The notes beneath the pieces are model-generated. The model saw only the letters and a list, made by a program, of their open reading frames with translations, made no database searches and was not told the DNA's origin. Of a stretch of DNA of 21,000 bases, positions 3,576 through 21,000 are shown one piece after another. The position numbers and the translations under genes were made by a program. How positions within the stretch are numbered: position 1 is the stretch's first letter; each line of letters starts with the position of its first letter. The DNA comes from a virus, in the IMG/VR virus record IMGVR_UViG_3300035698_012363, positions 1 through 21,000 of that record. One strand, given 5' to 3'.

Positions 3576-4574
3576 ATGGGTGCACGTAGTGTAACTACTG
3601 TAATGTCCGACCTTAGTATCTCAACAAGAGATTACATCCTACCTGGTATAGTATATCAGATCATTGAGTCAAACTATCTGGCCAAGCGCCTCTTGGGTAA
3701 ATCCGAGGGTGTTGGCGGTGGTGATCGTATCCGCGTTGACCTTGAAGTTAGCAAAGAGACAATCAATTGGCTGAGTGAGTGGGATAAGGTAACTTATGCT
3801 CCAACAGAGATTCTTGACGTAGCTTACTATGACTGGAAATGGCTTAACGGCTCTATTGTCCTGTCTGAGAAGCAAGTCCGTGTTCAAAACACTAGCAAAG
3901 AAGCCCTGTTTAATATTGTAAAAACCAAAGCGAAAAACCTTTCTCGTACATTCAAGCAGGGTTTTGGCGAACTATTGTTCAAGAATGCCGCAGCTGGGAC
4001 CAACGAACCAGCCACATTGTATGACATTATCGTGAACAATACTGGAACATTGGCCGGAATCGATCCCACCGTAGATACATACTGGAAAGCTAAGAAAATG
4101 GCTATCTCCAGCGTTACCTACGATCAGTGGATGGATCCAGCTCAGGTGTACTACGTTGAAGCAGTGATGCGAGCGATGTACGGCGCCCTGACCAACGATT
4201 CAGAGCACCCAACGCTTATTGTTACCACCCAGGCCATCTTTGATGACTACGAAATGATCCTCCACACCCAGAACCGTTACGCCTCAAGCGCATCGGTTGA
4301 CGGCGCTTTCGAGCGGCTTAAATTCCGTGGAGCTCAGATGGTTGTCGATAGTAATGTCCCGGCTGGGCACATGTACTTCCTGAATGAGAACTATCTCATG
4401 TTCAAGCACTCAAGCGAGATCAATTTCGATATGGGCGCCTTTGAGATGGTTAAGACCGGACAACACGCCTTCGCCTCAGAGCTTGATTGGTGGGGCGCTT
4501 TTGTATGTACGAACCGTGCATACCAGGGTGTTGTTACCGGTATTCCAGTAACTACAATTTCAATAACCCCATAA
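3576..4574 (+). CDS. Major capsid protein (HK97 fold)
   Basis: A 332-residue coat protein, translated from GAGGTGAT (3565-3572). It matches a common phage coat family: GDRIRVDLEV (49-58), YYDWKWLNGSIVLSEKQ (84-100), a long helix with NTSKEALFNIVKTKAKNL, then late FRGAQMVVDSNVPAGHMYFLN (about 250-270) and CTNRAYQGVVTGI near the C-terminus. In relatives the YDWKQ block, the 'NSGKEAI' helix and the 'F.GA....D...P.G..Y.LN' block belong to the HK97-fold coat. No N-terminal delta domain or fused protease is visible. This fits the scaffold being a separate upstream gene. The product should form the icosahedral shell. The stop codon is built into the ribosome binding site of the next gene. Confidence 0.9.
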   Translation: MGARSVTTVMSDLSISTRDYILPGIVYQIIESNYLAKRLLGKSEGVGGGDRIRVDLEVSKETINWLSEWDKVTYAPTEILDVAYYDWKWLNGSIVLSEKQVRVQNTSKEALFNIVKTKAKNLSRTFKQGFGELLFKNAAAGTNEPATLYDIIVNNTGTLAGIDPTVDTYWKAKKMAISSVTYDQWMDPAQVYYVEAVMRAMYGALTNDSEHPTLIVTTQAIFDDYEMILHTQNRYASSASVDGAFERLKFRGAQMVVDSNVPAGHMYFLNENYLMFKHSSEINFDMGAFEMVKTGQHAFASELDWWGAFVCTNRAYQGVVTGIPVTTISITP

Positions 4575-4582: not shown

Positions 4583-4585
4583 ATA

Positions 4586-5065
4586 ATGTTTACCCCTATT
4601 CAAAACCGTGATAAATCTGGTTTGACCTTCTCAGCCCTTCCAAACACCACTGGCATTACCCTGTACAACGGGACTGGCGCAGCCATTGTCAAAGGTGATG
4701 TGATGGTCATTTCATATTCTACTGACGCAGATGAAATCGCCGCCGGTAAGTATATGCAATGTAAGGCCGCTGCAACAAATGCCATCCTCATTGAGCGGGT
4801 TGTAATCGCTCTTGAAGCAATTCCCATCGCTAAAATGGGTTTCTTCGCCGTGGAAGGCTTTGTGGAAGAATGTAACTGCCTTAACAGTGCAGCGTTCACT
4901 GCAGGTCAGAGCTTAAAGTGCGTGACAGCCAAGGACTATCTTATCCTTGATCATGCAACTCCGACCAACAAACAGGCTGCTATCGCCATGGAGGCCTATG
5001 CTGGGACAACCAGTGTAGAGCTTGTCAAGGCTGTTTGGCTCCTGAGTAAGCCACACGCTATCTAA
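4586..5065 (+). CDS. Putative capsid decoration (cement) protein
   Basis: A 159-residue beta-rich protein directly after the coat gene. The segment NTTGITLYNGTGAAIVKGDVMVIS (residues about 20-43) matches the opening of many phage head-decoration proteins (DUF2190-like), where 'N.TG..I..GDVV.L' starts a small beta barrel. A later AKMGFFAVEGFVEE plus AAFTAGQSLKCV corresponds to the 'G..GWV.V.G......... V.AGD.L' part of those proteins. No membrane segment or signal peptide is present. Decoration proteins bind the outer shell and stabilise it against DNA pressure. Gene position and the very strong ribosome site (decoration proteins are needed in copy numbers like the coat) support the call. The family assignment is by pattern, not by search. 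Confidence 0.62.
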   Translation: MFTPIQNRDKSGLTFSALPNTTGITLYNGTGAAIVKGDVMVISYSTDADEIAAGKYMQCKAAATNAILIERVVIALEAIPIAKMGFFAVEGFVEECNCLNSAAFTAGQSLKCVTAKDYLILDHATPTNKQAAIAMEAYAGTTSVELVKAVWLLSKPHAI

Positions 5066-5073: not shown

Positions 5074-5103
5074 GTGGGGACCAGGCTAACACTTGGTCCC
5101 CGC
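5074..5103 (+). promoter_or_regulatory. Intercistronic RNA hairpin after the decoration gene
   Basis: Bases 5074-5085 (GTGGGGACCAGG) pair fully with 5092-5103 (CTTGGTCCCCGC) around a six-base loop, giving 12 pairs including two G-U. No T-tract follows, so it is probably not an efficient terminator. A role in mRNA stability or partial attenuation between two head genes is inferred. Confidence 0.6.
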
Positions 5104-5122
5104 ATATCCATGAAAGGATATG
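5103..5122 (+). promoter_or_regulatory. Hairpin enclosing the ribosome site of the following gene
   Basis: CATATCC (5103-5109) pairs with GGATATG (5116-5122). The AAAGGA ribosome site (5113-5118) lies across the loop and right arm, so the structure could lower translation of the following gene. C5103 would also be the last base of the preceding hairpin, so the two may compete at that base. Confidence 0.5.
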
Positions 5123-5125
5123 ATC

Positions 5126-5611: not shown

Positions 5612-5617
5612 GGACTT

Positions 5618-5633
5618 GCCCCCTTCGGGGGGC
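5618..5633 (+). promoter_or_regulatory. Very stable C(UUCG)G hairpin after the head genes
   Basis: GCCCCC (5618-5623) pairs with GGGGGC (5628-5633) around a TTCG loop closed by a C-G pair, one of the most stable known RNA tetraloops. No T-run follows, so alone it should stabilise the 3' end or cause pausing rather than terminate. The stop of the preceding gene lies seven bases upstream. Confidence 0.7.
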
Positions 5634-5672
5634 ATCCTGTTATGCCAGAAACCAAAAATATTGAAGAAGATC

Positions 5673-5692
5673 GGGCAATTCGTTGCCCTTTT
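5673..5692 (+). terminator. Intrinsic terminator after the head module
   Basis: GGGCAA (5673-5678) and TTGCCC (5683-5688) pair around a TTCG loop, followed by TTTTG and further T-rich sequence (5689-5699). The stem is short, so partial termination is plausible. Together with the hairpin at 5618-5633 it fills the 100-base gap between the head genes and the adaptor/tail genes and probably lowers expression of the latter. Confidence 0.72.
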
Positions 5693-5713
5693 GTAGTTTA
5701 AGGAAGTATTCTT

Positions 5714-6517
5714 ATGAATTGGGAACAACTTGCACAAAACGTGATCACCCCGTTTGGGACGAACAAGAAGCAGCTCGCGCTGGAGCTCCTTAAGCAAGCT
5801 GAACTCAACTTTGCGAATAAGACAAAGTGCCTTGAGAGCGAGGGCACCCTTTGGACCGGGACGGACGTACCAACCGGGTCACTCTCCATAGATACTGAAT
5901 ATATGAACGCAGGGTACACTACCGTTGTTTATGATGGTGTTACTATCGCAGCCGGAGAGACCTTCGACTCGGGAGCCGTAGCCCTAGCATACTCTGTGAC
6001 AGGGACAGGCAAGGTCGTCGCCGTAACTGAAGACCAGTGGGTGGTTGACCTCCCCTCTGATTATCTAGAGATTAAACACCGCCCCTCATGGAACGGCTCT
6101 AGCCTTACACTATTCGATCACAGAATGGATGTTGATTTAAGGTCAACAGTCCTAGGCACGTGGGATTCATCGACACCAGAATATTATTGGATAGAGAACG
6201 AGCAGCTTTGGCTATTCCCTGGGACAGTGACCAACGGGCGTATTGACCTGGAATATGTAGCTTATCCGACCGCAACAGCACAGGGAGGGGCCAACCCGAC
6301 AATCCAGGCAAGTTACCACCTGTATCTGATTGATTACGCTAAGGCGATGCTATACGCAGATGCAGAGAAGTCGAAATCTTATGCAATCTCCATGGGCCTA
6401 TATGAGCAGAACCGCAGGGATATCGAGATCCAGTTCTACCACAGTAATGAGCCCGACGTAACGAGGGTCGCAACGATAGCGGGTAATCCTACAAGACAGT
6501 CATTTAATAGGATATAA
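5714..6517 (+). CDS. Head-tail adaptor-like protein with inserted beta domain
   Basis: A 267-residue protein. The flanking parts have the layout of phage adaptor proteins: an N-terminal helix (QLALELLKQAELNFANKTK), then VVDLPSDYLEIKH (about 110-122), a strand pair EYYWIENEQLWLFPG, an IDLEYVAYPT strand, and a final helix pair with YHLYLIDYAKAMLYADAEK. Adaptors of this kind form a 12-fold ring between portal and tail. Two further proteins with the same layout are encoded at 10639 and 11220. Unusual is an extra module at residues about 48-107 (YDGVTIAAGETFDSGAV and neighbouring strands). It resembles short beta modules often seen in phage tail and adaptor proteins and splits the adaptor fold. 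AAGGAAG upstream serves as ribosome site. The adaptor role is inferred from shape and context. Confidence 0.66.
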   Translation: MNWEQLAQNVITPFGTNKKQLALELLKQAELNFANKTKCLESEGTLWTGTDVPTGSLSIDTEYMNAGYTTVVYDGVTIAAGETFDSGAVALAYSVTGTGKVVAVTEDQWVVDLPSDYLEIKHRPSWNGSSLTLFDHRMDVDLRSTVLGTWDSSTPEYYWIENEQLWLFPGTVTNGRIDLEYVAYPTATAQGGANPTIQASYHLYLIDYAKAMLYADAEKSKSYAISMGLYEQNRRDIEIQFYHSNEPDVTRVATIAGNPTRQSFNRI

Positions 6518-6520
6518 GTA

Positions 6521-9500
6521 ATGAGTTGGAACATACTAAGGCTATTCGGTGGGTTGTTCACAAATGGTGATCAAGAGGATATCTCAGAAGACAGTCTCCT
6601 GGTCAGTAAGAATGCGCGACCAGAGCTAGGGCTTGTCAAGAAGACTTTCGGTGCGGGAGCACTGCAATTCGCTAGTTCTTCAATATGCACACTCCTTGGT
6701 GGAACCGGATTTGATGTAATCAACGTCTATACCTATATCAATAAGAACTTCACTGAGGGTTATATCTACCTGGCGGTACTCAGGGACACGTCTACTGGCG
6801 AGACCCATATCCTTAAATTTTACGGGAGCACTTCTTTTACTAAAATTTTACCTTGGGGTGGCGGAGCTTTCTATCTATCCACTGGGACTGAGTTATATGC
6901 CTTGAACGACTTGGTACCTATATCGGGGCTCTCGGTCACTGAGGGGGCCAACTCATACGATTATGCCACAGCCCTAGATGACATCTATGCCGCATCGAAT
7001 AAAGCGAGTATAGGGCATGTCGTTTATAGCGGAGTCCCGTCTGGACTTGGAGTCTCCTACAATAAGGATTATGCCGGCACCGATGTGTCCGTGTCGTCAA
7101 CCCTCCCAGCATACGCGACATTTAAGGCTATCGTCGGTAGTGATATTTACGACAATCTTGACCGCAGGACTGGTCAAATAACCACCTTCGACGATAATCT
7201 CTATACCATTGTACCACGGAAGGATGTCCTCGATATAGAGGATGGGGCTATCATGTATTACAACGGCTCTTGGAAAGAATATGTGGGGATAGATTTCGGA
7301 TTTACGGTAGGCACCAACGATGTCTTCCAACCGCTACACCTCGCAGAGTTTAATGGCAAGTTCTATGCTGTAGTCCAGTATTACGACGCCGGTGTAGATC
7401 AGCGAATATATTTCTTCAGCAAAACGACTACTGGGCCTTGGGTCAGACTCGATTCTTTTAGTAACATAACGACCGATGATGGCTATGCTTATGCCACAGG
7501 GGTCGGGAACCTAGAGTGGGAGAACACCACAAACGTAAACTCTGCGGTATGTAATATATCTGAGTCAGATTATCTTTACATTGGGTTTACTGGCCCCCTC
7601 GCTTCTCACGGATCTGTATGGTATATAGATAAATACGATCTGGTGAATGAGGCCGCCCTGCCAGTAGCTCTTGGTAGCTTTTATGTGGAAGGCATCTCAT
7701 CGATAGATGGAGGGGAGTGTCTAATCTCTGTCTATGTTTCTGCTTTGAGCGAATCGCTACTGTATAAGACAAATGGGGATCCATCGACGGTAACGACTGC
7801 TGTAACCTTACCAACGACCATCGTTGGACTCGGGAGCTCAACATATAAAAGGATCAAATTCCTAAGCGACATAACTGCCGCCGGGGTAGTCCTCACCGCA
7901 AGGGTTGCTTCTGGGGCTTGGGACATGTGGGCGGCGATACACCTTGACCTAGATTTAGGCAGAGCCACCCTAGTCAATTCTACCTTTGGCACCATTGATG
8001 CGGCTACGTCAACCGTCCTCTATGTCTCGTACTCAGATGATGAACTTGGTAGTACGTTATACTTGAATGTGGCGGAGGAAACCGCTCTCAACATATACAC
8101 CAATAATATCTATAGGACATTAACATCCGGGCAGGCGGCTCTCGCGTCCATTTATGCCACCATAGCGAATACCCGCGGGGACCTAGTGACTTCGATATAC
8201 GCCTACACTACATACACCGGCATCTCTGATGTTTCGCTTAACAAGCACATGGCCGAAGTAAACCTTATGTTCGGGCTGAATGATCAACAGCGTGGGAATA
8301 ATATCCCACCCGTATTGTGGCGATATGCAGGACTTGGAGCGAATGAAGCCTATATCCCCTATGGTGGGACGTATGACATAGAATCTGTTTTTAGTGCATG
8401 CCTGGGATGGAGGGAACATGACTTCCTGGGGAATCCCCCAACCCTGTATCATAAAGACGCGCAAAACCCTGTCGTTATGGACGCTGGCTCAGTGAGATTC
8501 CTTCCCGGAGCAATTGGGATGGATGATTCTGATACCTATGAGGCCAAAGGGTTGTGGCTTGGGTATATTGATAGAGATTTTTATAATGGACTATACTCCC
8601 CTACCGCGGGGTTCTACGCCTACGACAAAACCCCTCTTGCGCCATACCCATACGATAACGACCCCGCAACCGGGTCGCTGACGAGTATAGGGTTCCAGGG
8701 GTTGGGAGACCCGGATGCTGATATTGATGAAAGTGACGAATACAGGTATATCAGATATTCTTTTGTGTATGATGGTATCCAGGAATCATTGCTTAGCATT
8801 GCTTATTCATCACGAGTGCCTACCGCCCCTAATCTTATCGATGTAGCTGACCTATATATGCAGCTTGCGAGTGAATCCGCCCCAGGTGTAGCGACGGAAG
8901 ATGTAAGATCGAACAGTAGAATTACGGGGATGAAGCTCTATTTGATGTCCGATGGCGCGGACACGGCAAGCGCAACGCTTATCACCGAAGTTAGTTTTAT
9001 TGGTCCGCTAGGCTCAGAAGACGATTATTATGGAGCAAATGGGCTGGCCGGGTACAAGTATGCGCTTATCGAGAACCCCGGATTAGCTTTTGCTGCATAC
9101 GAGACAACCGTAACGAACCCCGGAGGTGCAGACGGGATACGCTTAGATGGGACAGATTACTGGTTTGCAGACAAGACAGACCTTGGCGCAGATGGGATCT
9201 TATTTGAGCTAGCGACTGACTATACCGCTTCAGAACAATTATTTAACTCACCATGGACTATAGTTAATCATGGTGCCGCAATCATAGACAGAGATGCTAC
9301 AAATGGCGGGTATTGCGGGAAGAAGATGTTCTTCGATGTTATTAAGGACTTTCACCAACTCAATCCCGTAGGCCTAACCCCCGTTGGCTGGGGAAACATA
9401 GGAACATTCAGCAATGCCCTAGTCCAGTTTGTGACAGATACAGACGACCTAAAAATAACAAAAGTCTCAAAACATGTCCTATACTTCTCAGGGTATTGTA

Positions 9501-10642
9501 TTGAGGATGGTTTTGTATATCGGATTGGGACACACCCCTATGTATTCCACACAAGGGCCTATCTAGGCCCGATCTATACGACGAACATGCACATTGTTCT
9601 TGACTTGGCGAATGCCAATGGCGCGGCTTATGCGTTACAGGGAGCAGCTTCGATAAAAGTGAATCCTGATTTCGCTAAAATAATCGGATCAAGGTGCTGG
9701 CAAGCAACTTCGGTCTTAGACCCAGGCGGAGAGAACGAAGAGCAGCTTGCATCTGTTAATTATTCCGAAGAGAACCAATTTGATATCGTCCCGGTCTCAA
9801 ATCTTATCCTGATACGCGACCGCGAAGGTGGGGGCGTAACTGGGCTAGATGAGCTTTATAACCTACCCGTGGTAGCCACAAAACAAGGCATCTTCAGGAT
9901 AAATTCATCACTAGGGTTTAATGAGTCAGCTCACAATATCGGGAATATCGCTAAACACGGGATGATCGCAGCCGGTGGGCGGGTGTTCGTATGCTGGGAA
10001 GACGGTGTTTATGGGCTTTCCATGAACAATCTGGCAGAGTCGGACGCTACACCGACAGAGCGGTTAAAGGTCTCACTTGCGATAGAAGACACCTACCTAT
10101 CCCTTTCAAGGACCCAGAAAGAGGCGATAAGAACAGGCTTCGACCAGAGTAAGAATGAGGTAATATTCGCCCTTGGTTCCGAAGTATTTGCCTTCAACCC
10201 TGCTACAGAGCAGTGGCGGGAGATAGATTCTAATGTAGGGTTCGGCCTTATTGAACTTGACGAGAACGCCGACTTAATGGTATATGACAGTGTTTTGTCA
10301 GGTCTCCATACTTTCGCGGAGGAAGAGGCTGTCAAAATGGAGATATTCACGAAGTTTTTTAACCTTGACGATGAGATCAAGCGTGGCATTAGGTATCTGC
10401 AAGTAAGATACGACAACCCTGACGCCGCCAACGTGCTCACTCTAGAGGTTTACCTGGACGACGAGATGGTCACGCCGTCCAAGACTATAATATTGGCCCA
10501 GACCAGCGGGGTCTATCTTCTCCCATTGGCTGAGGTAAGGCAGTATGCCAACAGCTATGCGATTCGAGTCTATGAGAACGGTGTCGCCAATACGAGTGAA
10601 GTCGAGATCCACAAGATAAGTATCGAAGAGGACTTAGGATGA
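6521..10642 (+). CDS. Large tail structural protein (nozzle/hub-like, beta-propeller type)
   Basis: A 1373-residue protein, Tyr-, Gly- and Ser/Thr-rich and almost entirely beta by composition. The N-terminus (NILRLFGGLFTNGD ... VSKNARPELG) matches the start of large podoviral tail proteins, in which an 'N....LG.L..R.G' segment leads into a propeller. Repeated bladelike strands include FNGKFYAVVQYYDAG, EVIFALGSEVFAFNPATEQW, and near the C-terminus DIVPVSNLILIRDREGG, VTGLDELYNLPVVATKQGIF and GGRVFVCWEDGVYGLS. That C-terminal series is characteristic of a family placed between adaptor genes in podovirus-like genomes, comparable in position to the T7 gp12 nozzle or P22 gp10. The C-terminal ~150 residues form a separate beta domain. 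It lies four bases after the first adaptor gene and overlaps the second by ATGA. A receptor-binding function is possible but not shown. Confidence 0.66.
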   Translation: MSWNILRLFGGLFTNGDQEDISEDSLLVSKNARPELGLVKKTFGAGALQFASSSICTLLGGTGFDVINVYTYINKNFTEGYIYLAVLRDTSTGETHILKFYGSTSFTKILPWGGGAFYLSTGTELYALNDLVPISGLSVTEGANSYDYATALDDIYAASNKASIGHVVYSGVPSGLGVSYNKDYAGTDVSVSSTLPAYATFKAIVGSDIYDNLDRRTGQITTFDDNLYTIVPRKDVLDIEDGAIMYYNGSWKEYVGIDFGFTVGTNDVFQPLHLAEFNGKFYAVVQYYDAGVDQRIYFFSKTTTGPWVRLDSFSNITTDDGYAYATGVGNLEWENTTNVNSAVCNISESDYLYIGFTGPLASHGSVWYIDKYDLVNEAALPVALGSFYVEGISSIDGGECLISVYVSALSESLLYKTNGDPSTVTTAVTLPTTIVGLGSSTYKRIKFLSDITAAGVVLTARVASGAWDMWAAIHLDLDLGRATLVNSTFGTIDAATSTVLYVSYSDDELGSTLYLNVAEETALNIYTNNIYRTLTSGQAALASIYATIANTRGDLVTSIYAYTTYTGISDVSLNKHMAEVNLMFGLNDQQRGNNIPPVLWRYAGLGANEAYIPYGGTYDIESVFSACLGWREHDFLGNPPTLYHKDAQNPVVMDAGSVRFLPGAIGMDDSDTYEAKGLWLGYIDRDFYNGLYSPTAGFYAYDKTPLAPYPYDNDPATGSLTSIGFQGLGDPDADIDESDEYRYIRYSFVYDGIQESLLSIAYSSRVPTAPNLIDVADLYMQLASESAPGVATEDVRSNSRITGMKLYLMSDGADTASATLITEVSFIGPLGSEDDYYGANGLAGYKYALIENPGLAFAAYETTVTNPGGADGIRLDGTDYWFADKTDLGADGILFELATDYTASEQLFNSPWTIVNHGAAIIDRDATNGGYCGKKMFFDVIKDFHQLNPVGLTPVGWGNIGTFSNALVQFVTDTDDLKITKVSKHVLYFSGYCIEDGFVYRIGTHPYVFHTRAYLGPIYTTNMHIVLDLANANGAAYALQGAASIKVNPDFAKIIGSRCWQATSVLDPGGENEEQLASVNYSEENQFDIVPVSNLILIRDREGGGVTGLDELYNLPVVATKQGIFRINSSLGFNESAHNIGNIAKHGMIAAGGRVFVCWEDGVYGLSMNNLAESDATPTERLKVSLAIEDTYLSLSRTQKEAIRTGFDQSKNEVIFALGSEVFAFNPATEQWREIDSNVGFGLIELDENADLMVYDSVLSGLHTFAEEEAVKMEIFTKFFNLDDEIKRGIRYLQVRYDNPDAANVLTLEVYLDDEMVTPSKTIILAQTSGVYLLPLAEVRQYANSYAIRVYENGVANTSEVEIHKISIEEDLG

Positions 10643-11223
10643 CAAGCGCGGTAATGATAACCAGGCTTAAAAACAGGTCTGGACAACGGTGGACGAGCGC
10701 CCAATGTTTAGTTTTCCTAAATGATGCACAGGATCGCCTTATCGAGAAGCTTAATCATCTCTACTTCACCGAGATCACAGAGATCGATACTCTTACACTC
10801 ACAGGCAAAACCGGGTTACTCTCAGCCCTTTCCCCAGATATTTATGATGATAGCTCAGTAATCGCTATGAGGTATGAGGATGGAGATACCCCGTTTTACA
10901 CAGAGATACCATTCTCCAGGATAAAAGATACTGAGAATACGCTACTTGCGCCAACAAATGAAGACCCGATGTATTATGTATATGCAGGGTCTATCTACGC
11001 AAAACAACCTGCGTCAGCCCCAGATGTAACCGTATTCTACATAAGAGAGCCGTTAGTGATCACCGCTGCAGTGAACACAGAGCTTGACAGCTCCCTGCAT
11101 GAGTTACTGGTAACAATAGCAGAGTCATTTGGATGGGTCATGGATAACCGTGGTGGAAGGGCAGCACTAGCAGTTAAGTCATATACCCGTGAGATCGAGA
11201 TGATGAACGGGAGGCAGCTATGA
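10639..11223 (+). CDS. Adaptor-like connector protein (second copy)
   Basis: A 194-residue protein starting in an ATGA overlap with the tail protein gene. The N-terminus is helical (SAQCLVFLNDAQDRLIEKLN). The core has the adaptor layout: IPFSRIKD, LLAPTNEDPMYYVYAGSIYA, VTVFYIREP, then LHELLVTIAESFGW and a final helix. The following gene is clearly related: LAPT..(D/A)P.YY.......Y..Q, a FYI..P strand, and SLHE..VT.AE...W line up in the same order. It is also alike in layout to the 5714 protein. In phages such proteins sit in the neck or between tail layers. A duplicated connector protein, in which each copy fills a different ring or shell of the tail, is inference. Confidence 0.62.
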   Translation: MTSAVMITRLKNRSGQRWTSAQCLVFLNDAQDRLIEKLNHLYFTEITEIDTLTLTGKTGLLSALSPDIYDDSSVIAMRYEDGDTPFYTEIPFSRIKDTENTLLAPTNEDPMYYVYAGSIYAKQPASAPDVTVFYIREPLVITAAVNTELDSSLHELLVTIAESFGWVMDNRGGRAALAVKSYTREIEMMNGRQL

Positions 11224-11807
11224 CCGTAGATGAGATGATCTTAGACCTTCAAACCAGGTTAAGTGACCCGGATGACCAGCTTATCAGCCCGACCATAAAG
11301 CTAGAGGCCCTGAACGACGCTCAATCGAGGGCAATCAATATGTTAAGCCGCGGGTCCCTCGGAGAGCTCTCGAAGATAAACACGGTCGCAGCAGCCAACC
11401 CCTATGCAATATCGAGCCTTTCAGATGCTTACGGGTCAGGGGACTCTATAACAATGATTAAATACGCGGCTTCTGACGTTTATTTTACGCCAGTCACGCT
11501 CAAGCGGATAAAGGGGCTGCAGCCAACACTCTTAGCCCCAACGGCAACAGCCCCATATTATTACATTTGGAATTCAAAACTATATATGCTACAGGGGGCA
11601 GGTGCGGTAGCATACCACATATTCTACATATCAGCACCAACGTCACTCGCCTCTGGGGTGAGCTGTATCCTTGCACCATCGTTACATGAGATCATAGTTA
11701 CATTGGCTGAAGGAATATGTTGGGGCATAGGTGATAAGCCGATAAGCGCAGAAGTCGCTTTCGAGGCTGCTTATAATTCAATAGACGAAATTAACGAAGG
11801 GGTATAG
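11220..11807 (+). CDS. Adaptor-like connector protein (third copy, paralog of upstream gene)
   Basis: A 195-residue protein, ATGA-overlapped with the upstream paralog. It begins with helix MTVDEMILDLQTRLSD and a second helix LEALNDAQSRAINML, similar to the phage connector helix pair in which 'LNDAQ' recurs. It then has TLKRIKGLQPTLLAPTATAP, YYYIWNSKLYMLQGAG, a HIFYISAP strand and SLHEIIVTLAEGICWG. The parallel with the preceding protein is continuous from the first helix pair to the end, so tandem gene duplication followed by divergence is the simplest explanation. It is probably a structural neck/tail protein. No membrane segments or catalytic motif are seen. The stop TAG is followed two bases later by the next ATG. 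Confidence 0.62.
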   Translation: MTVDEMILDLQTRLSDPDDQLISPTIKLEALNDAQSRAINMLSRGSLGELSKINTVAAANPYAISSLSDAYGSGDSITMIKYAASDVYFTPVTLKRIKGLQPTLLAPTATAPYYYIWNSKLYMLQGAGAVAYHIFYISAPTSLASGVSCILAPSLHEIIVTLAEGICWGIGDKPISAEVAFEAAYNSIDEINEGV

Positions 11808-11809: not shown

Positions 11810-12745
11810 ATGGTACTAGCAACCGGAACAATAATGGCATTATCGGCACTTGCGAAAGCAGGTGGATCGATATACAACTATTATCAGAACAAAAACAATG
11901 CCCCAAGCGCATACGCTGACACAGCCCAGGGGAAACGCCTGGCAGAACAGCAGAAGAGTGGGTCCTACGCAGGTGCAGCCCGCAACGAGATTATTGGGGC
12001 CACAAATAGGGTGGCTTCGGCTAGCGCCGAGACAAATGCGGCAAATTACCGTGGGCGTATCGAGAACCTAGAATTGGGGGGGAGTATCGCAGCCCAACGT
12101 GGTTTAAATGAGATCGAGGGGAACCGGGGACGCATTGTAGCGAATGAGGCCGGGAGAGTAACGGCGCTTAACGAGCAGTCAAAGATTGCAGCCGGTGATC
12201 AACTCGCAGCCGGTACAGACCAGCGGGCGGACCAGATCCAGCAATATAACAACCAGAACAGATCACAGCTAACGAGCGGATTGGTCGATGCTGGGGTGAC
12301 GGGGCTATCAGCATACGGGCAGTATCAACAAGGGAAAGAGCTTCTTGCTAACCAGCGCCAAGACGCTACAACAAAATTTGATCGAGACCTTGAATTGAAC
12401 CTTACACCCGCAGAGCGGATAATGAACCAAATCCAAAGTGGGGCCCCCCCACAGCCTAATGATCTTGCCGGTTTCTCTCAGTCCACTCAAGGACAATTAT
12501 CCGCGGGGCCATCTCCAGCGAGACAATACCAGGCGCAGCAGGGGAACGGATATGCAGCCAACAGCCTCCAAGATATGACTACGTGGGCCATCGATAGCCT
12601 TAACGCCGGGCCTCCATCCCCGCTGGCTATTACTCATGTACAGCAAGCCCTGAGAGATAGCGGGTTTAATATTAGCGTCGATGGCATCATGGGACCGGCG
12701 ACACAAGCGGCTATAGACCAATATTTAAACAGCCAAAAACGGTAA
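11810..12745 (+). CDS. Internal-virion/ejection-type protein with peptidoglycan-binding domain
   Basis: A 311-residue protein with a GAAGGGG ribosome site. The N-terminus has a moderately hydrophobic helix (residues about 4-25, ATGTIMALSALAKAGGSIYN). The middle is Ala/Gln/Asn/Gly-rich and helical (about 45-175), as in internal virion proteins of podoviruses such as those in the T7 gp14 position. A Pro/Gln/Ser-rich linker (about 205-265) leads to a C-terminal peptidoglycan-binding domain (about 272-308): ITHVQQALRDSGF followed by VDGIMGPATQAAIDQYL, the standard PG_binding_1 signature of Q-x-x-L, a G-F/Y turn, D-G-x-x-G-x-x-T and AI.  The domain should hold the protein on cell-wall glycan during genome entry; no lytic enzyme domain is fused. 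A C7 run at 12444-12450 does not disturb the frame, since domains on both sides read in phase. Confidence 0.66.
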   Translation: MVLATGTIMALSALAKAGGSIYNYYQNKNNAPSAYADTAQGKRLAEQQKSGSYAGAARNEIIGATNRVASASAETNAANYRGRIENLELGGSIAAQRGLNEIEGNRGRIVANEAGRVTALNEQSKIAAGDQLAAGTDQRADQIQQYNNQNRSQLTSGLVDAGVTGLSAYGQYQQGKELLANQRQDATTKFDRDLELNLTPAERIMNQIQSGAPPQPNDLAGFSQSTQGQLSAGPSPARQYQAQQGNGYAANSLQDMTTWAIDSLNAGPPSPLAITHVQQALRDSGFNISVDGIMGPATQAAIDQYLNSQKR

Positions 12746-12754: not shown

Positions 12755-13684
12755 ATGCCAGCACCTAGACCACCTTCACCGGCAGACTTAATCGCCTACA
12801 CCAACGCGACGGGAGAGCTTTTTACTACTGTTCATAACGATGAGCACTACTTCAAGCTAACTGGCGAACGGGTCCCATGGTATAAGGCGCCGGTCAAAAA
12901 GGCCGCGAAGCCCGAGACAGCAGTACAGCAGAACCAGCGTGAAGACGCACAGAAGAAGATCCTTGACCGCCGGAAGAAGCCCACAGAGGCCGAGAATGAG
13001 GCCGCCAGGGTCAAGGCCGAGACAGCCGCATACAAGTCTGTCAACGATCTGGAAAAGGAGCAGAGCACCTACCAGAACACCCAGAAGAAGCGGGAGCTTA
13101 AGCGCAAGGGAGAGCCCGCAAGTGATGCTATATTCAGGATGGAGGGGGATATTGGAGCGAATAAGGAAGAGATAACCCGCCTTGAGGGGGGTAAACCTGA
13201 CTTTGTAGAGGATGATCGCGGAGTATTCAAGAGGGCAAAGGATAATATTGTAGGAGCGCTTACCCCTGGGGATGATGCCGCAGCGCGGGACGCAAGGCTG
13301 ACCAATGAGAATAGATCTATCCAGCAGGAGCGAGACCGCATTTCCGCATCTCAAGGCGTCTTTGAGCAGGAGAATGTACTAAAATCAGATTCAACAAACA
13401 CCATAGCAAGAGGGGCTGGGATTGGCTTCAAGAATATCGGTGAACTATATTTCAAACGCCAACAGGCCCAGAGCTATATGGATCAGTACGAGCAGTCAGT
13501 CATGACAAATGCAATAGGGCTAATTGAGAAGGAATTGGGGTTTAGGCCAGCCGATGATTACCTTGCAACCCCTAGAGGTCAGCAGATACTTGAAGCTGCT
13601 ATGTCAAAAGTTAGCGATGGAACAGAAGCTCTTAACTACAAAAAAGCAGAGAAGCTATTATATGACACCCGCAAAGACGCTTAA
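12755..13684 (+). CDS. Charged coiled-coil internal-virion-type protein
   Basis: A 309-residue protein, preceded by AAGAGG. The N-terminal ~45 residues (PSPADLIAYTNATGELFTTV; YFKLTGERVPWYK) could be a small folded or packing motif. Residues about 50-150 are Lys/Glu/Ala/Gln-rich and predicted coiled coil (QREDAQKKILDRRKKPTEAE, then RVKAETAAYKSVNDLEKEQS). Another helical region runs from about 170 to 250, and the C-terminal part (IGLIEKELGFRPADDYLATP) looks globular and helical. No signal peptide or enzyme motif is visible. I do not recognise a named family. Position between the peptidoglycan-binding protein and the giant polyvalent frame, together with the composition, suggests an internal protein carried in the capsid. 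Its last 23 bases overlap the next gene, so the two are translationally coupled. Confidence 0.6.
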   Translation: MPAPRPPSPADLIAYTNATGELFTTVHNDEHYFKLTGERVPWYKAPVKKAAKPETAVQQNQREDAQKKILDRRKKPTEAENEAARVKAETAAYKSVNDLEKEQSTYQNTQKKRELKRKGEPASDAIFRMEGDIGANKEEITRLEGGKPDFVEDDRGVFKRAKDNIVGALTPGDDAAARDARLTNENRSIQQERDRISASQGVFEQENVLKSDSTNTIARGAGIGFKNIGELYFKRQQAQSYMDQYEQSVMTNAIGLIEKELGFRPADDYLATPRGQQILEAAMSKVSDGTEALNYKKAEKLLYDTRKDA

Positions 13685-16600
13685 ACGGAATAAACAGCCA
13701 GGAGTCACGGACGGTATCCGGGAAATGATTAGCGGACTTTATGGAGAAGAAGTCTCAGACTACGGTATATTTGGTCCAGACCAGCAAGAGGTAGAACGTG
13801 ACCCAGAAAGAACAGCATTCTTTTTGAAACTTTCCGATCCAAATTATACACCACAAATAGCACATGATCCAAAACAAGTAGCCCGCGACTATGCCATGTT
13901 TGAGGCCGCCAAAAAGCTTGTATCCCGCAACCAGCAGCAGCAGGAAGACGCGCTTGCAGGGGACCCGAAGGCCCAGAAGGAGATGGCAGAGCAGGAAGAA
14001 CTACTCACCAAGCAGAATGATCCAACTAGGAACGAAGCGATTGCAAGCAGCAAGGACCCGGCGAAGACACTCTCAGAGATCCAGCAACTTGAGAGTAAGA
14101 TTAAGGGCGAAGCCCAGGACGTACAGGAGAGGTTGAGAGCAGACTTCTATAGTAAGATTGGCCAGGAAGAAGAGGCAATCCCAGAATCAACTTTCGTAAA
14201 CTCAGAGGGCCTTGAAGCGGAACCAGTAGCCAGCGCAGACCTTAATCCCGAAGAGAAGACGCAGCAGCTTGGCTTTAGGGACCGGGTTATGGAACTCGTA
14301 GATAACCCAGAGCAAGCCACTAAACTTGTGCCATTCCTTGCAGGTGGGATGGAAATCTATGAGCTTGCTGAACTCGCTGACTCAGCCTATCGGCTCAACG
14401 AGGGAACCGCAGATGAATCCGACTTCGAGAAGCTTACTAAATATATTGAACAATCAGAGCTCGATAAAGGCTTTGGGTACCAGGTTGCCGATATCCTCTT
14501 TATGCTACCATCGTTTGCCGGTGAACTTTGGCTGACAGGTGGGTTATACACGGCAGGTAAAAAGGTTGGTATAAAAACAGCTGAGCGGACCCTAAAGGGC
14601 TTACTGAAAAAGGGTGGCAAAGAATTACTCGAAAAACGCGCTGGGATATTGACAGCGAAGAAGGGCGCCGAGAGTCTAGGCAGGAGAACCGTAGCAAGAG
14701 CCGCAGATATTGGGATCAAGTCAGTCGGTGGGATTGTCGGTGGAACACTACAGACACCGGCAGCGGGAGTAACCAGGATTATAGCTGGGACCGTTGAAAA
14801 GATGCTGCCCAGGCTTGGGCTTGAAGAGAATGAGGCCGGTAAGATGGCCCCAGTCATCACAGGGGAAGGCGAGGACCTTACTGACGCACTGATAAAATCC
14901 TTTGGTGAACAGTGGGTTGAAACCGTATCAGAACATAGTGGTGGGTTATTCCAAGAATTAGCGAAACCAATCAAGGGCATTGCCTTTAAATCAGCATTTA
15001 TCAAAAAGTTCCTTGAGCTCAACCCAAGTATTCCCCCAGGCAAACTTAGAACAGCCATTGAACGCGCTGGCTGGAATGGCGTTATTGGCGAAATGGGCGA
15101 AGAGCGCCTTGGCGAATTTGGCCATGGGATATTATATGAAGCAGGTCTTGGCGACCAGCCGTACCAACTCCCTACCCCAGAGCAGCTTAGTGTTGAATTT
15201 GTCGCATTCATGATCCCCGGAGCTGGTCTAGCATTAGGGTCGAAACTTGCGCCTGATAAGAAACCACCGCCACCGACCGGTCGTGATAATGTCTATGATA
15301 GATACCAGGGCCGTCAAGATATCCTCCCCCCAGGGGTCCCTGGGGATGCCAATATCGGCGCTTCACTCCCAGAAGACTATGTACCAACGCATGAAGACTT
15401 TGTACTCGCTGAAATAGCGGACAGGTTCGCCCAATCACAGGCAGATCAAGCACCCTTCCAGGAGATAACCGACGAGACCGAGGCTCCAGAAACACTTAAC
15501 GACATCCAGAAGCAGCTGCATGAGCAGAATAACCAGCTTAAATCCCTGGTTACTGACAGTAAGATCGAGATTGCGAAGCTCGAAGAGGCTCTTGAGTACG
15601 AGAATGAGATCACGAATAACGAGGACGGTATTGCAGAAGTCGATACCGAGCTCAAACGCGCTATCTCAGACCTAAACGAGATCCAGTCACTCAAGGATGA
15701 TGTAGTCAACAACATTACTCACAACAATTCCAGGCTTAATACAGATGAGCAAAAGCGCAAGAAGCGCGGTAAAAACAAAAAAGCTCTCCCACAGGAGCCT
15801 TCCCAAGAAGAGAGCGAACCTGCCTCAATTGAGGCAACGCAGGGTGAAGAGGGGGTCCAAGTTGCTCCGCCTGGCACCCCCGCCCCTGTTGAGGTGGAAG
15901 CAGCACCAGAAGAGACCCGGACCGAAGAGCAGCAGATATCCGATTTTGTGGATCAATACAATGAAGAGAACGGAAAAGGCGGAATCCTGGCAGCAGCCCA
16001 GAAGTTCAACACCTCCCTGGAAAAAGTTGGCGCCGCGATTGCAACTAAGTCCGGCAAAAAGACAAATATTAGCCAGATACAAAATGAAGTCGAAGCATAC
16101 CCAGAAGGGCATTCAAAAAAAATATTTGAAAAACATGTCAAAGTATTGGAGACCTCAACCGACCCGCTAGAGAATCTTAACTCTGCTCATGCTATAAAAC
16201 GCAGGGCCGCCAGAGAAGGGGGCACCGCTGACGATATAGTCGCCCTTGCTAACGATATTGAGACAGCGCTTAAGGATGAGGGCTATGAAGTAATAGACCT
16301 AACCGGGCGTAATTATGATGATGGCATGACGCTTGACAAGGCAGAGTTTGTCATCGATAAGGATCTTGCTGACGGAGAGCGGGTAATAACAAGAGTCTTA
16401 GCCCCGCAGATAATGAAGGACGGTAAGATTGTCCAGGGTGCTGATGTAGTCATAAGTCAAGGGGAAAGATCCCTCACCGCTGAAGAGACAGCCACGGCAA
16501 AAGCAAAAGAGCAGAAGCAAACCGCAGATGAGGACAGGATACGTGCAGAGCTTAATGCAGAAGTTCCACGTGAAACGCCTAAACAATTAAAGCGAAAGCC

Positions 16601-19600
16601 CAAAAAGACCTTAAAACCTAAGATTGTTGCGACAATTAAGCGCGACGGTGTAGCTTTTGAAGTATGGCGTGTTGGCAATAACCTTGAGTTACGGTCCAAG
16701 AAAAAGGATTCAAACGGAGACCCAGTACAGACGAGTTTCTACTCAGAGAAGCTATTAGAGGAATACAATAATAGATCAGCTGGTGGACGCAAGGGTGCCA
16801 AGACTGCCAGAGAGTTTAAGACCATCATCCCCAAGAGCGCATTAAGCGATATGCCAGCACTAAGCGCCGTTTTCGGTGCTAAAGTTGGGAAAGACTATAG
16901 TAATACCTTTGACGGTATTTTAATCGGGAATAAAAAGGTTTGGGAAGAAGGGGAGAATGTAGTCGCCAATTACGATGAGGCCATTATCGAGGGCTACAGA
17001 GACGCGCTCGGCTTGTCTGATGAGGTAGAGCTCAGTGTTGATGATATTATTGAGCAAGCCCAGAGAGAGGCAGAAGCCTACAGAGGCCGTGCCGGGAAGG
17101 ATGAGGCGACAGCGCAGCGACTATATGAAGATCTGAGGAAACCCGGTCCTATAACAGCAGAGTATGATGATTTTGTACTGGCACAAGAAGAAGACATTAA
17201 AGCGGAAGGAATGACCGATGAAGAACTTGAGGCGCTCGGAAGGCAAGTCGAAGATTTTACAAGAGAACAGCTTGAGGCTGAAGAGGCTAACGCTGAAGTT
17301 ATTGCGGCTGAGGAACAACGGGACACCAAGCCAGAGGTCAAAAGCAATCGCCCAGATGAAGAGACTGGGAATCAAGAGCAGTTAAAGGCCGAGATTGCGA
17401 CTCTTGAGGCAAAGATAGCCAAGGGGACCAAATCAGTGCAGTCCGAGAGCCAGACCGGCATATTCGGATCACCCGCAGACCAAAACCAGTTATTCGACAC
17501 CGGCGCCACCACGGCAGCCAGTATGGCGAAGCTGCGTGCAGAGCTTGAGGCCAAACAGGACGAGCTTACGCAACTCACTGAGGACCAGGAGATTAAAGCC
17601 GAAGTAGAAGCAGGGAAGTCTACGGCAGAGCTTGAATTGAAATCTGCACAAACGAGTAAAACTGTAGATTCGCCAAAAGTACCGGTTGTTAAAAAACAAG
17701 AGGTTACGGGAAAAGAATCTGCACAAACGAGAAAACAACTCAAGAAACCAGCGCCAGCACCCAAGAAGCTACTAAAGCCATTAGCGCCACCAGAGCCAGA
17801 GCTCAAGAAACCCGAGCCCAAGCCAGCGAAGAAGCTTGAGAAGAAACCTGAATGGACACGAGAGAAAGTCATTGCTGCACTGAAAGCCGATAAGCCTATA
17901 CCAGAAGCCGTACTAGCTAAGTATCCTAACCTTGTAGCGCAAAAGCAATACAGGGATGATATAGCCCGCACAAAAACCGAGATGGAAGACAAGCAGGCAT
18001 ACATAAATAATCTTAAGAAAGAGCTTCCAAGAGCACTTAGGGAAGTTGAGCACGAGGTTCGTATTGAGGCTATAAATGATGCCATAACAATTGCTAACAA
18101 CCAAGAACCAAACAACACGTACAAACCAGACGATGTTGCAGATCTACATACTGATTTTGTCCAGGCTACTTTAGAGTATACAGCGTTAAAGGACAATCTT
18201 AAGACGCTCAGTGAACGCCAGCGGTTATTGACCGTCCAAGGAAAGAGGCTAGAGAAGGCACCGCCATTAAAGCTTGAGACAGAAGGAGTTAAACCGATTT
18301 CCGATCTGGGCGATAAGATTGGTGGAGCCCGCAAAGACTTATCCGGGGGAAGATCACTTAAAAAAGGCAAGGGGACTCCAAAACCGACTGGCTGGCGAGC
18401 AAGATATAATTTATCTCAGATAGCCGCAGAGTTTAGTATTTCAGGCGGGATAACCAGAGAGAGCCCCAACGCTGGTAAGTTTGCCATATTTGATAAACGG
18501 AAGAAGCGGACGACATGGAGCGGGATCCCAAGACCAATAGGCAACAAGTATTTCGAGACAGAGGCCGAGGCCCTGGAGATGATGCCATTGCTGGCCGTTG
18601 CCGAGAAGCACCGGGTATATAGCGTCGGTGATAAATTCACAATCTACAGATCAATATCAGACCGTAAGCGTGTCCGGGTCTTAAAGCAGGAGTTTGACAC
18701 CAGGGAAGCCGCCATGAAGTACATGGTTACTCATGCGGAAGAGATACTTGATACCAAGCTAACCTTTGGCGAAGAGGTCCTGCCGCGTCCAGATGTTGTT
18801 TTCAGGAACGGTGAAGCCCGTCGCAAGGGTAACGTCACCGGCGAATCATTCATGGATACTTTTGGGTTCCGTGGTGTAGAGTTTGGCAACTGGGTCACAA
18901 AGACAGAAGAGCGCCAGGAGGTGATGAATCATGCCTTTGATGCACTTCTAGATATGGCCGAAGTCCTGGGAATCCCAGCGAAAGCAGTCTCACTTAATGG
19001 TGACCTAGCACTAGCATTCGGAGCCAGGGGGCAGGGGCTAAGTGGTGCCGCAGCTCATTATGAGCCGACATTCGCAGTAATTAACCTCACGAAGATGGCT
19101 GGCGCAGGGCACTTGGCTCATGAGTGGTTTCATGCACTTGATCATTATGTAGGCCGCCTAGATACTAAAGCCGGTGGTAAGAAGGCCGGAGCCGAACCTG
19201 GGAAGCCTATTTTTGAAGGTAAGTCAGATAGAGATATATTTGCGACTCACGGCTTCCAGTATGCGAGCAGATCAAAAGCCCGTCCTGAGTTAAGAGAGGC
19301 TTTTGATGAGTTTGTTAAGACCATGTTCACAAAAGGGAAGCAATACGTTGAGGATACCGAGAAAGCAGACAAGTTCCTTTCGGCAGCCAGAGAGGGCCTT
19401 GAGGATAATCTACAGGCAATCAGAAATTATATAAGCGTACAGCGCGAATCAACATACTATAAGCGCAATAACGCGCCCGCTACACCAGACCAGCTAGCCG
19501 AATTTGACAAGATAGCCAAACTGCTCATTGATGGGGAAGGCCTCGAAACTGAGTGGATGGCGATTGAAGGCAGCCGGAAACGCTCCGGCGGAAGGCATTC

Positions 19601-21000
19601 AAACCAGGCGCTTGAACAACTGAGTAAGATTTTTAAAGCCGTTCGCGGTCGGTCTGGTGTTTCAACCGGTAACGGTGATAATACCATAGGTCGATTGAGG
19701 GGCCCGATGCAAGCCTACCAGCAGCGAATAAAGATTATGAAAGATGCCGAGGGCGGGAAGAAGAAGCTCAGACGTGTACCAACAGATTTCAGGAAACAAG
19801 CCACGGCAGCAGACCAGGCCAAATCAAAAGCATACTGGGCAACCGAGCACGAGATGGGAGCAAGAGCTTTTGCTGCCTATATCGAAGACAAATTAGCTGA
19901 GAAAGAGAATGTAAACGACTTCCTGACGTATCATGCTCATGGTGCTGTGATCGTACCGATGTACCCAGAAGGCTTCTTTAGACCATACCCAGAGGGACAG
20001 GAGCGCAAAGATATTAACTCTGCCCTTGAAAAGATGTTCGATACCATTGAGACAAAAGAATCCGAAGATGGGGTAGAGATGTTCCAGGTGGGATCATCGA
20101 TGGAGAGATCTACCCCTGAGTGGACTGAATCAGCCATTGCTATCATGCAGGGCGTATTTTCAGGTGCGAAGGTGGTAAGCAATCGTAGAGGATGGATGGC
20201 AGCCACAGCGAGACTTGGCAAGAATCCTCAATCAGCCTTTGGCTTCTGGGACCCAAAGACAAACACTGTTTACATAAACCCAGACAAATCAAATAAAGAT
20301 ACTGTATTCCATGAGTTTACCCACCCTGTTATCGAGCAGATGAGGCTACAAGACCCGGCGCTATACGCGAAGGGCATGGAGTTAATTGCTGGGTCTGGGT
20401 ATGTCAAATACGCTACCGCCCAGGGGTACAAAAACCCAATGAATGAGGCACTTGTTCAGGCTATTGGAGAGAAGGGCGCTTCAATCCAGGACCAGGTACA
20501 GCGCAATAAGTTTATCGCATGGGTAGAAGAGTTGTGGCACAAGGTCAAGACGCAGATGAAAGAGACCTTCGGCCTAGATATGGCGCTAGATGATTTCGTT
20601 AATAATGTCGCATACGGCATGAGGAATGGCGCAATCCAGGTGAAAGCGCAGAACCCCGTACCTATGGGTGCCAATGTAGTCGCATCTGAGTATCCCAAGA
20701 AGATAGAGCGAGAACGCGCAACATATATATCCGAAGACATGAATAACTCGGTCGGTGGGATCCAGATCGGGATGGACTTCTCGGAAGATGTTAAGCCGAT
20801 TGAAGATTATAAGGTTAAGGTCAAACTCGTACCGACAGGCACGTTTAAAACAGGCGTTAAAAAGGTAAATTCCATTGAAAGCCTTGGGAGGGTAGCCCAG
20901 GATATTATCGGAGGAAGAGCTCAGGAGAATGTGGTCGCGGTCGTCCTGGACGGTAACGACAACATACTAAAGGTCGTAAAACACTCTATTGGTGGGAAAA
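13662..21000 (+). CDS. Giant polyvalent protein with LPD1-type zincin, second zincin and start of JAB domain (3' end beyond window)
   Basis: The frame is open without a stop from ATG 13662 to the window edge: at least 2446 residues. I checked phase at several points (14460, 15660, 16440, 17460, 19119, 20310, 20940). In order: helical charged N-terminus; hydrophobic segments at about 273-296 (DILFMLPSFAGELWLTGGLY), 353-375 and 510-529 (FVAFMIPGAGLALG), with EMGEERLGEFGHGI near 480; coiled coil about 590-705; a GrpE-like segment 861-934; K/P/E linker 1340-1400; coiled coil; IGGARKD (1552-1558); SDRKR near 1666; LPD1-type block with FGFRGVEFGNW (1734-1744), AFGARG (1785-1790), HYEP (1799), HEWFH (1820-1824) and EMGARAFAAY (2064 on); a second zincin HEFTH (2217-2221) with NEALVQAIGEKG (E2262); and VVLDGNDNILKVVKHSIGG (about 2427-2445), resembling the first strands of RadC-like JAB domains. 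Such polyvalent proteins are known from phages and conjugative elements and are thought to enter the cell with DNA and act on host defences. Position after internal-virion genes supports packaging. Domain order is seen; substrates are not. Confidence 0.85.
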   Translation, partial: MTPAKTLKRNKQPGVTDGIREMISGLYGEEVSDYGIFGPDQQEVERDPERTAFFLKLSDPNYTPQIAHDPKQVARDYAMFEAAKKLVSRNQQQQEDALAGDPKAQKEMAEQEELLTKQNDPTRNEAIASSKDPAKTLSEIQQLESKIKGEAQDVQERLRADFYSKIGQEEEAIPESTFVNSEGLEAEPVASADLNPEEKTQQLGFRDRVMELVDNPEQATKLVPFLAGGMEIYELAELADSAYRLNEGTADESDFEKLTKYIEQSELDKGFGYQVADILFMLPSFAGELWLTGGLYTAGKKVGIKTAERTLKGLLKKGGKELLEKRAGILTAKKGAESLGRRTVARAADIGIKSVGGIVGGTLQTPAAGVTRIIAGTVEKMLPRLGLEENEAGKMAPVITGEGEDLTDALIKSFGEQWVETVSEHSGGLFQELAKPIKGIAFKSAFIKKFLELNPSIPPGKLRTAIERAGWNGVIGEMGEERLGEFGHGILYEAGLGDQPYQLPTPEQLSVEFVAFMIPGAGLALGSKLAPDKKPPPPTGRDNVYDRYQGRQDILPPGVPGDANIGASLPEDYVPTHEDFVLAEIADRFAQSQADQAPFQEITDETEAPETLNDIQKQLHEQNNQLKSLVTDSKIEIAKLEEALEYENEITNNEDGIAEVDTELKRAISDLNEIQSLKDDVVNNITHNNSRLNTDEQKRKKRGKNKKALPQEPSQEESEPASIEATQGEEGVQVAPPGTPAPVEVEAAPEETRTEEQQISDFVDQYNEENGKGGILAAAQKFNTSLEKVGAAIATKSGKKTNISQIQNEVEAYPEGHSKKIFEKHVKVLETSTDPLENLNSAHAIKRRAAREGGTADDIVALANDIETALKDEGYEVIDLTGRNYDDGMTLDKAEFVIDKDLADGERVITRVLAPQIMKDGKIVQGADVVISQGERSLTAEETATAKAKEQKQTADEDRIRAELNAEVPRETPKQLKRKPKKTLKPKIVATIKRDGVAFEVWRVGNNLELRSKKKDSNGDPVQTSFYSEKLLEEYNNRSAGGRKGAKTAREFKTIIPKSALSDMPALSAVFGAKVGKDYSNTFDGILIGNKKVWEEGENVVANYDEAIIEGYRDALGLSDEVELSVDDIIEQAQREAEAYRGRAGKDEATAQRLYEDLRKPGPITAEYDDFVLAQEEDIKAEGMTDEELEALGRQVEDFTREQLEAEEANAEVIAAEEQRDTKPEVKSNRPDEETGNQEQLKAEIATLEAKIAKGTKSVQSESQTGIFGSPADQNQLFDTGATTAASMAKLRAELEAKQDELTQLTEDQEIKAEVEAGKSTAELELKSAQTSKTVDSPKVPVVKKQEVTGKESAQTRKQLKKPAPAPKKLLKPLAPPEPELKKPEPKPAKKLEKKPEWTREKVIAALKADKPIPEAVLAKYPNLVAQKQYRDDIARTKTEMEDKQAYINNLKKELPRALREVEHEVRIEAINDAITIANNQEPNNTYKPDDVADLHTDFVQATLEYTALKDNLKTLSERQRLLTVQGKRLEKAPPLKLETEGVKPISDLGDKIGGARKDLSGGRSLKKGKGTPKPTGWRARYNLSQIAAEFSISGGITRESPNAGKFAIFDKRKKRTTWSGIPRPIGNKYFETEAEALEMMPLLAVAEKHRVYSVGDKFTIYRSISDRKRVRVLKQEFDTREAAMKYMVTHAEEILDTKLTFGEEVLPRPDVVFRNGEARRKGNVTGESFMDTFGFRGVEFGNWVTKTEERQEVMNHAFDALLDMAEVLGIPAKAVSLNGDLALAFGARGQGLSGAAAHYEPTFAVINLTKMAGAGHLAHEWFHALDHYVGRLDTKAGGKKAGAEPGKPIFEGKSDRDIFATHGFQYASRSKARPELREAFDEFVKTMFTKGKQYVEDTEKADKFLSAAREGLEDNLQAIRNYISVQRESTYYKRNNAPATPDQLAEFDKIAKLLIDGEGLETEWMAIEGSRKRSGGRHSNQALEQLSKIFKAVRGRSGVSTGNGDNTIGRLRGPMQAYQQRIKIMKDAEGGKKKLRRVPTDFRKQATAADQAKSKAYWATEHEMGARAFAAYIEDKLAEKENVNDFLTYHAHGAVIVPMYPEGFFRPYPEGQERKDINSALEKMFDTIETKESEDGVEMFQVGSSMERSTPEWTESAIAIMQGVFSGAKVVSNRRGWMAATARLGKNPQSAFGFWDPKTNTVYINPDKSNKDTVFHEFTHPVIEQMRLQDPALYAKGMELIAGSGYVKYATAQGYKNPMNEALVQAIGEKGASIQDQVQRNKFIAWVEELWHKVKTQMKETFGLDMALDDFVNNVAYGMRNGAIQVKAQNPVPMGANVVASEYPKKIERERATYISEDMNNSVGGIQIGMDFSEDVKPIEDYKVKVKLVPTGTFKTGVKKVNSIESLGRVAQDIIGGRAQENVVAVVLDGNDNILKVVKHSIGGK
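17641..17731 (+). repeat. 16-base direct repeat inside the polyvalent protein linker
   Basis: AATCTGCACAAACGAG occurs at 17641-17656 and 17716-17731, exactly 75 bases (25 codons) apart, giving SAQTSK and SAQTRK in the Lys/Pro/Glu-rich linker. It looks like a trace of in-frame duplication in a disordered spacer. Confidence 0.6.

Follow-up and report, generated by a model that had tools for sequence, protein, structure and literature searches.

The window, that is, the whole stretch of 21,000 nucleotides analysed here (IMGVR_UViG_3300035698_012363), is an entire IMG/VR record, which ends at 21000, and its last 7.3 kb are filled by one giant gene that encodes, as judged by its domain families, a phage-type polyvalent protein with several unrelated enzyme and LPD domains in one long chain that is free of cysteine. 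The frame is a real gene: starting with the ATG at 13662, 2446 codons follow one another without a stop until the record ends, which at the base composition of the window has a chance probability of about 10^-53, and a relative, L002 (IMGVR_UViG_3300031741_000009), encodes a giant protein that aligns with residues 49-2446 of the window giant, with 79% identity in the best segment, and whose upstream genes are the same. The frame is already open from a TTG at 13524, with ATG 13662 as the likely start. The first-pass annotation had described an unbroken frame that leaves the window and should continue past 21000, and both points held up, as the L002 frame runs to 3591 residues and is likewise still open; the window therefore holds at most about two-thirds of the giant protein. 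When viral contigs were queried with the whole giant, its ZN2/RadC part, the gp15-like protein or the capsid protein, none was closer than L002. We rejected the size of the frame as a novelty, since giants of 3000-4960 residues are common in phages.

Domain layout of the giant protein

The features of the giant gene are as follows (the window giant is P0001, the L002 giant P0007):

13662..21000, + strand: giant polyvalent gene, 2446 codons, 0 cysteines, open at the record's end
13812..14111, + strand: N-terminal segment (residues 51-150) that is conserved, with about 70% identity to L002
14112..15311, + strand: N-terminal region that has diverged and contains two weakly hydrophobic segments, a possible membrane-insertion part
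15312..15911, + strand: conserved charged, probably coiled-coil segment (coiled coil by eye), residues 551-750, 50-86% identity to L002
15912..17846, + strand: variable linker, residues 751-1395, aligning poorly with L002
18630..18860, + strand: LPD5-like segment, corresponding to residues 1899-1975 of L002 (PF18799, 25 bits, narrowly missing the cutoff of 27 bits)
18759..19211, + strand: ZN1, zincin metallopeptidase core, HEWFH at 19119-19133, with H1799 and D1827 unchanged across 27 relatives
19809..20057, + strand: LPD1, residues 2050-2132, interpreted as forming the C-terminal half of ZN1; Glu2064 (19851-19853) is the likely third zinc ligand
20082..20666, + strand: ZN2, second zincin-like domain, HEFTH at 20310-20324, candidate third ligand Glu2262
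20868..21000, + strand: start of RadC/JAB, first ~44 residues, cut by the record's end

The combination of LPD1, two zincins and RadC that had been proposed as being of the polyvalent type is borne out by the matched domain families: LPD1, ZN1, ZN2 and the start of RadC lie in the window giant, L002 adds the full RadC and a GNAT-like module, and the gene stands among late virion genes, with capsid, decoration and adaptor genes directly upstream. As to the protection of incoming DNA that has been proposed for such proteins, we found no antirestriction, methylase or ParB modules in the seen part of the window giant. A Pfam search of both giants, which are incomplete chains, gave no RNA polymerase match.

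Identity to L002 forms a mosaic, with 94-100% at residues 1701-1900, 14-34% at 151-550, and mostly less than 45% at 751-1250. The hydrophobic, possibly membrane-active N-terminus of the first-pass annotation is retained insofar as there are two hydrophobic peaks (Kyte-Doolittle values of 1.2 and 1.5 at residues 275-293 and 509-527), but these are weak and the region diverges between relatives. The chaperone-cofactor-like segment had to be given up, as it has no profile match and appears by eye to be charged and probably coiled-coil. The linker of L002 carries extra inserts that are absent from the window giant, among them an ART-like one at about residues 765-900 (by eye, without a Pfam match), which suggests module exchange within the variable linker.

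ZN1 carries the signature of a widespread phage-type zincin clade, for which Iyer et al. 2017 (PMC5512222) give a His that ends strand 2 and an Asp in the third position after HEXXH: HEWFH lies at residues 1820-1824, and H1799, H1820, E1821, H1824, D1827 and E2064 are invariant in the alignment of 27 relatives. The Pfam family LPD1 (PF18796) matches residues 2050-2132 (E 1e-18, 67.5 bits against a cutoff of 27), PHROG families of unknown function match residues 1540-2142, and the NCBIfam family CLCA_X matches residues 1714-1833 (E 1e-41, which falls short of the cutoff set for full-length members of this family). An AlphaFold2 (AF2) model of residues 1700-2340, with a predicted local distance difference test score (pLDDT) of 72.6, resembles lethal-factor zincins (Z 8.9, 188 residues) and the Pro-Pro endopeptidase PPEP-2 (Z 8.1), and the ranges aligned to these proteins lie within model residues 1-444 and end at model residues 428-444, that is, they run through LPD1. 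Therefore, LPD1 seems in the model to make up the C-terminal half of this zincin, preceded by a long insert, and E2064 is likely the third zinc ligand. The LPD1-type metallopeptidase-like domain that had been proposed thus stands with regard to the family match and the HEXXH at 1820, but LPD1 does not seem to be a domain of its own. When solved structures were searched with the ZN1 sequence, the only matches were to fragments of histidine ammonia-lyase, which we read as chance.

The second zincin-like domain was also found as annotated, with HEFTH at residue 2217 and E2262 as candidate ligand, both of which are kept in gp74 of the Tenacibaculum phage Gundel_1. We rejected the label "structural protein" of gp74 as proteomic proof, as the text of its paper is without the term "mass spectrometry". 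As to the RadC-like JAB domain whose beginning had been noted, the alignment to L002 places its start at about residue 2403; L002 holds the full domain (PF04002, E 3.6e-15; PDB 2qlc, E 5.7e-5), and the metal-site motif HxHPSG...S..D, which is beyond the end of the window, is complete there (SHNHPSG). One passage of PMC5512222 confines RadC to conjugative elements and another allows it in phage-type chains, and two other phage-type giants carry it, namely L108 (7262-17251, with InPase and MuF_C) and L021 (6950-16441, with ddrB-ParB, ART and LPD38), so that we no longer regard the presence of RadC in such a phage protein as new. Behind RadC, L002 has a module (18641-20335; also in L019-L097) that carries an invariant QSDW motif and has no Pfam match in L002. 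This module is encoded by 477 candidate stretches of the viral collection, either alone in proteins of about 700 residues or within giants of up to 4963 residues. Its AF2 model (pLDDT 84) resembles GNAT acetyltransferases (best Z 9.9), while Foldseek alone gave no significant match for the model, and we treat the GNAT likeness as a lead and not as an identification.

Gene neighbourhood and the probable ejection cassette

The giant gene closes a podovirus morphogenesis cluster of the SU10 type, and it directly follows two genes of the internal-virion type, as had been annotated:

3576..4574, + strand: major capsid protein
4586..5065, + strand: probable head decoration protein
5714..6517, + strand: SU10-type adaptor
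6521..10642, + strand: probable tail nozzle, 1373 aa, 8 cysteines; its L002 relative matches head closure Hc2
10639..11223, + strand: SU10-type adaptor paralogue
11220..11807, + strand: SU10-type adaptor paralogue
11810..12745, + strand: gp14-like internal virion protein, 311 aa, 0 cysteines, with a hydrophobic N-terminus and a sub-threshold peptidoglycan-binding-like C-terminal segment
12755..13684, + strand: gp15-like internal virion protein, 309 aa, 0 cysteines, overlapping the start of the giant gene by 23 bases

The gp14-like, gp15-like and gp16-position genes are thus arranged after the capsid and tail genes in the order of T7, P22, SU10 and N4/DEV. In phage SU10, the gene order is the same, and gp20-24 are present in virions and absent from genome-release intermediates, which marks them as ejection proteins (PMC9509320). 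In phage DEV, gp73, gp72 and gp71 have been equated with gp14, gp15 and gp16, and gp71 is a giant polymerase (PMC10925440). For the podophage JC1, gp69 with its 4515 residues is the product of the last gene of the morphogenesis module, and 51 of its peptides were detected in virions (PMC9144972). The portal of the relative (L004), which heads this gene order before the capsid gene, is SU10-like, with a match just under the cutoff.

The nozzle-like protein differs in length between the window (1373 aa) and L002 (1713 aa, 1722-6863) by 340 residues, which suggests variable tail domains. At the head of the structural cluster, a 106-aa protein (302-622, + strand) matches solved Tad1 structures (8kbb, E 9e-18) and the Pfam family Acb2_Tad1_hairpin, and is by these matches a probable signal-sponge anti-defence protein (Thoeris anti-defence 1).

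Cysteine content of the cassette and its relatives

The cassette of the giant and the two small genes contains no cysteine in 3066 residues, whereas the other genes of the window contain 21 in 3439 residues (18.7 expected for the cassette, Poisson P 7e-9), and the corresponding cassette of L002 has none in 4195 residues (27.8 expected). Among the fetched loci, which were chosen by homology and not sampled, the 66 open reading frames (ORFs) of at least 1800 residues have 0.008% cysteine, 54 of them being without any, and the 771 other ORFs have 0.70%. In 63 loci, the fraction of cysteine-free products is 84% for the gene just before the giant, 47% for the next, and 20-31% further upstream. Altogether, 51 giants with the ZN1-LPD1 stretch contain 8 cysteines in 151,486 residues. 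Homologous columns contain 1 cysteine in 25,347 residues of giants, 98 in 13,658 of short relatives, and 11 in 1,870 of Gram-negative plasmid relatives; these module-level figures count aligned columns, as counting the span between domains overstates the contrast and counting the best domain understates it. The short relatives have 590-690 residues and come from Clostridia and Bacteroidota, and by size and host they look like proteins of integrative conjugative elements (ICE). One giant from a plasmid, with 4626 residues or more, carries 19 cysteines, and therefore size is not the cause of the lack of cysteine. The GNAT-like module has no cysteine in about 38,900 aligned residues.

Established ejection proteins behave alike, with no cysteine in gp7/20/16 of P22 (1309 residues), in gp20-24 of SU10 (2956 residues), in gp50 of N4 (3500 residues) and in gp15 and gp16 of T7 (2065 residues), and with one in T7 gp14. 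In the set examined, cysteine content reveals both the boundary of the cassette and the route of delivery, and homologous modules separate cleanly by route. A lack of cysteine had already been stated, with the same explanation, for the N4-like virion RNA polymerases (vRNAPs; PMC3715699, PMC3915230, PMC2784036), and we therefore rejected the claim that a cysteine rule is new as such. In a review of ejection proteins (PMC8954989) there is no word on cysteine, and what seems to be new is the extension beyond the N4 vRNAP to polyvalent giants and other ejection proteins. A 3484-residue cysteine-free giant with the ZN1 core is also encoded in a Clostridium metagenome-assembled genome (L145, 6694-17161), and the trait may thus extend to phages of hosts that are thought to lack a periplasm.

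Proposed role and comparison with known systems

We consider it quite probable that the frame represents the N-terminal two-thirds or less of an ejection protein at the gp16/vRNAP position of a SU10-like short-tailed phage, which is packed, ejected, and delivers enzymes. The giant would be packed in the head together with the gp14-like protein, which may form an outer-membrane pore, and the gp15-like protein, which may form a periplasmic tunnel. It would be threaded, unfolded or partly unfolded, through portal and nozzle and then across the oxidising periplasm, and the complete lack of cysteine would keep it from forming disulfides en route, so that a string of enzymes could be delivered to the cytoplasm ahead of or together with the DNA. 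Inside the cell, the two zincins may split the chain into functional parts, or else cleave host proteins, and the splitting would free RadC/JAB and, by homology to L002, the GNAT-like module. We infer these steps and the activity of each module; the protein is most likely packaged and ejected, and possibly it is self-cut. The packaging that the first-pass annotation had suggested from placement alone has gained indirect support from the gene order, from the JC1 giant that occurs in virions in the same kind of position, and from the cassette-wide exclusion of cysteine.

An effector that is expressed late in the producing cell and not ejected, serving capsid maturation or host modification with zincins that process virion proteins during assembly, is an unlikely alternative for which there is a precedent, as zincin processing of DdrB before packaging is known in P1 (PMC5512222), and Gundel_1 gp74, which shares ZN2, is labelled just "structural protein". 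However, a cytosolic protein would have no reason to exclude cysteine from its whole chain, the plasmid and ICE-like relatives, which reach their targets by other routes, keep their cysteines, and the JC1 giant at the same map position is found in the virion. We give even less credence to an ejection protein with a chiefly structural role that retains its enzyme modules as decayed remnants: residues 151-550 and 751-1395 do diverge freely between close relatives, but conservation is highest in the zincin region, where residues 1701-1900 are 94-100% identical, and the metal and base residues do not vary among the 27 sequences. That a polyvalent protein of a conjugative element was captured in a viral contig is hardly credible in spite of the frequency of LPD1, zincin and RadC in such elements and of the passage that confines RadC to them (PMC5512222), as capsid, adaptor and nozzle genes lie upstream on the contig, the nearest relatives are phage or prophage giants, and RadC also occurs in the phage-type giants L021 and L108.

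Beyond the ejected giant of the window, we lean slightly towards a general law that cysteine is almost wholly excluded from the proteins which short-tailed phages send through the envelope, among them the polyvalent giants, so that ejected homologues can be told from those delivered by conjugation; that LPD1 is the C-terminal half of a zincin is a second point that we hold with the same reserve. The cysteine hypothesis was formed on the same data, and the only tests with separate proteins are those with T7, N4, SU10 and P22, of which N4 was already known.

Several observations weigh against these interpretations. The gp14 and gp15 labels rest on position, size and composition, without a profile match, and no sequence similarity between the JC1 giant and the window giant could be detected. 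A lack of cysteine is not specific to ejected proteins, as scaffolds and the P1 tape measure protein also have none, and P1 DarB, which is counted as ejected, has 9 cysteines. The homologues are not independent, with just 1-4 independent contrasts in the ZN1 tree, and with the best-scoring core segment alone the contrast falls to 0.12% versus 0.004%. Furthermore, the GNAT-like module is free of cysteine even in the plasmid giant, and thus some modules may simply carry the trait along.

Phage polyvalent proteins have been proposed to be injected and few have been tested, and with cysteine content the question of injection can be put to the sequence itself. If the law is true, it provides a sequence mark of the ejected set that would reveal candidate injected effectors in thousands of unannotated viruses, as well as a cheap control for packaging claims. 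It would also point to a physical constraint, namely that thiols are avoided in long chains that have to cross an oxidising periplasm or pass through a narrow channel.

Among known systems, the phage-type polyvalent proteins (PMC5512222) share with the window giant the giant multidomain chain, the clade zincin, LPD1, an LPD5-like segment, RadC and the position beside virion genes, but the order ZN1/LPD1, ZN2, RadC and, in L002, the GNAT-like module was not found in the records compared. The giant L108 of a Desulfospira joergensenii prophage (3329 aa) is 58% identical over LPD5-ZN1-LPD1, has RadC, lacks cysteine and follows virion genes, but it carries InPase in front and MuF_C/PBECR at the place of ZN2. 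In the Traversvirus ST2-8624, gp51 (an LPD5-domain giant of Stx phages, 2793 aa, 2 cysteines) has a ZN1 core that is about 60% identical over 120 residues; it aligns over ZN1 only, and its gene follows a block of accessory genes and not directly the small virion genes. N4 gp50 and DEV gp71, with about 3400-3500 residues, are likewise the last of a three-gene ejection set, and N4 gp50 also carries a zincin (PMC5512222) and no cysteine, but the window giant has another enzyme set, in which no Pfam RNA polymerase domain was found. The DarB-like giant of Bcep22 and JC1 (gp75/gp69) is also the product of the last podovirus morphogenesis gene after small virion proteins, and JC1 gp69 is proven in virions, but it has a helicase-type module, and no Burkholderia phage is among the matches of the window giant at 1e-5. 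SU10 gp20-gp24 and T7 gp14/15/16 agree in gene position, order and lack of cysteine (except for the one in gp14), but SU10 gp24 and T7 gp16 are much smaller and without any known polyvalent enzyme set. In conclusion, the window giant is a further member of the phage polyvalent proteins, a protein type that is already known, and it occupies the gp16/vRNAP slot of a SU10-type podovirus.

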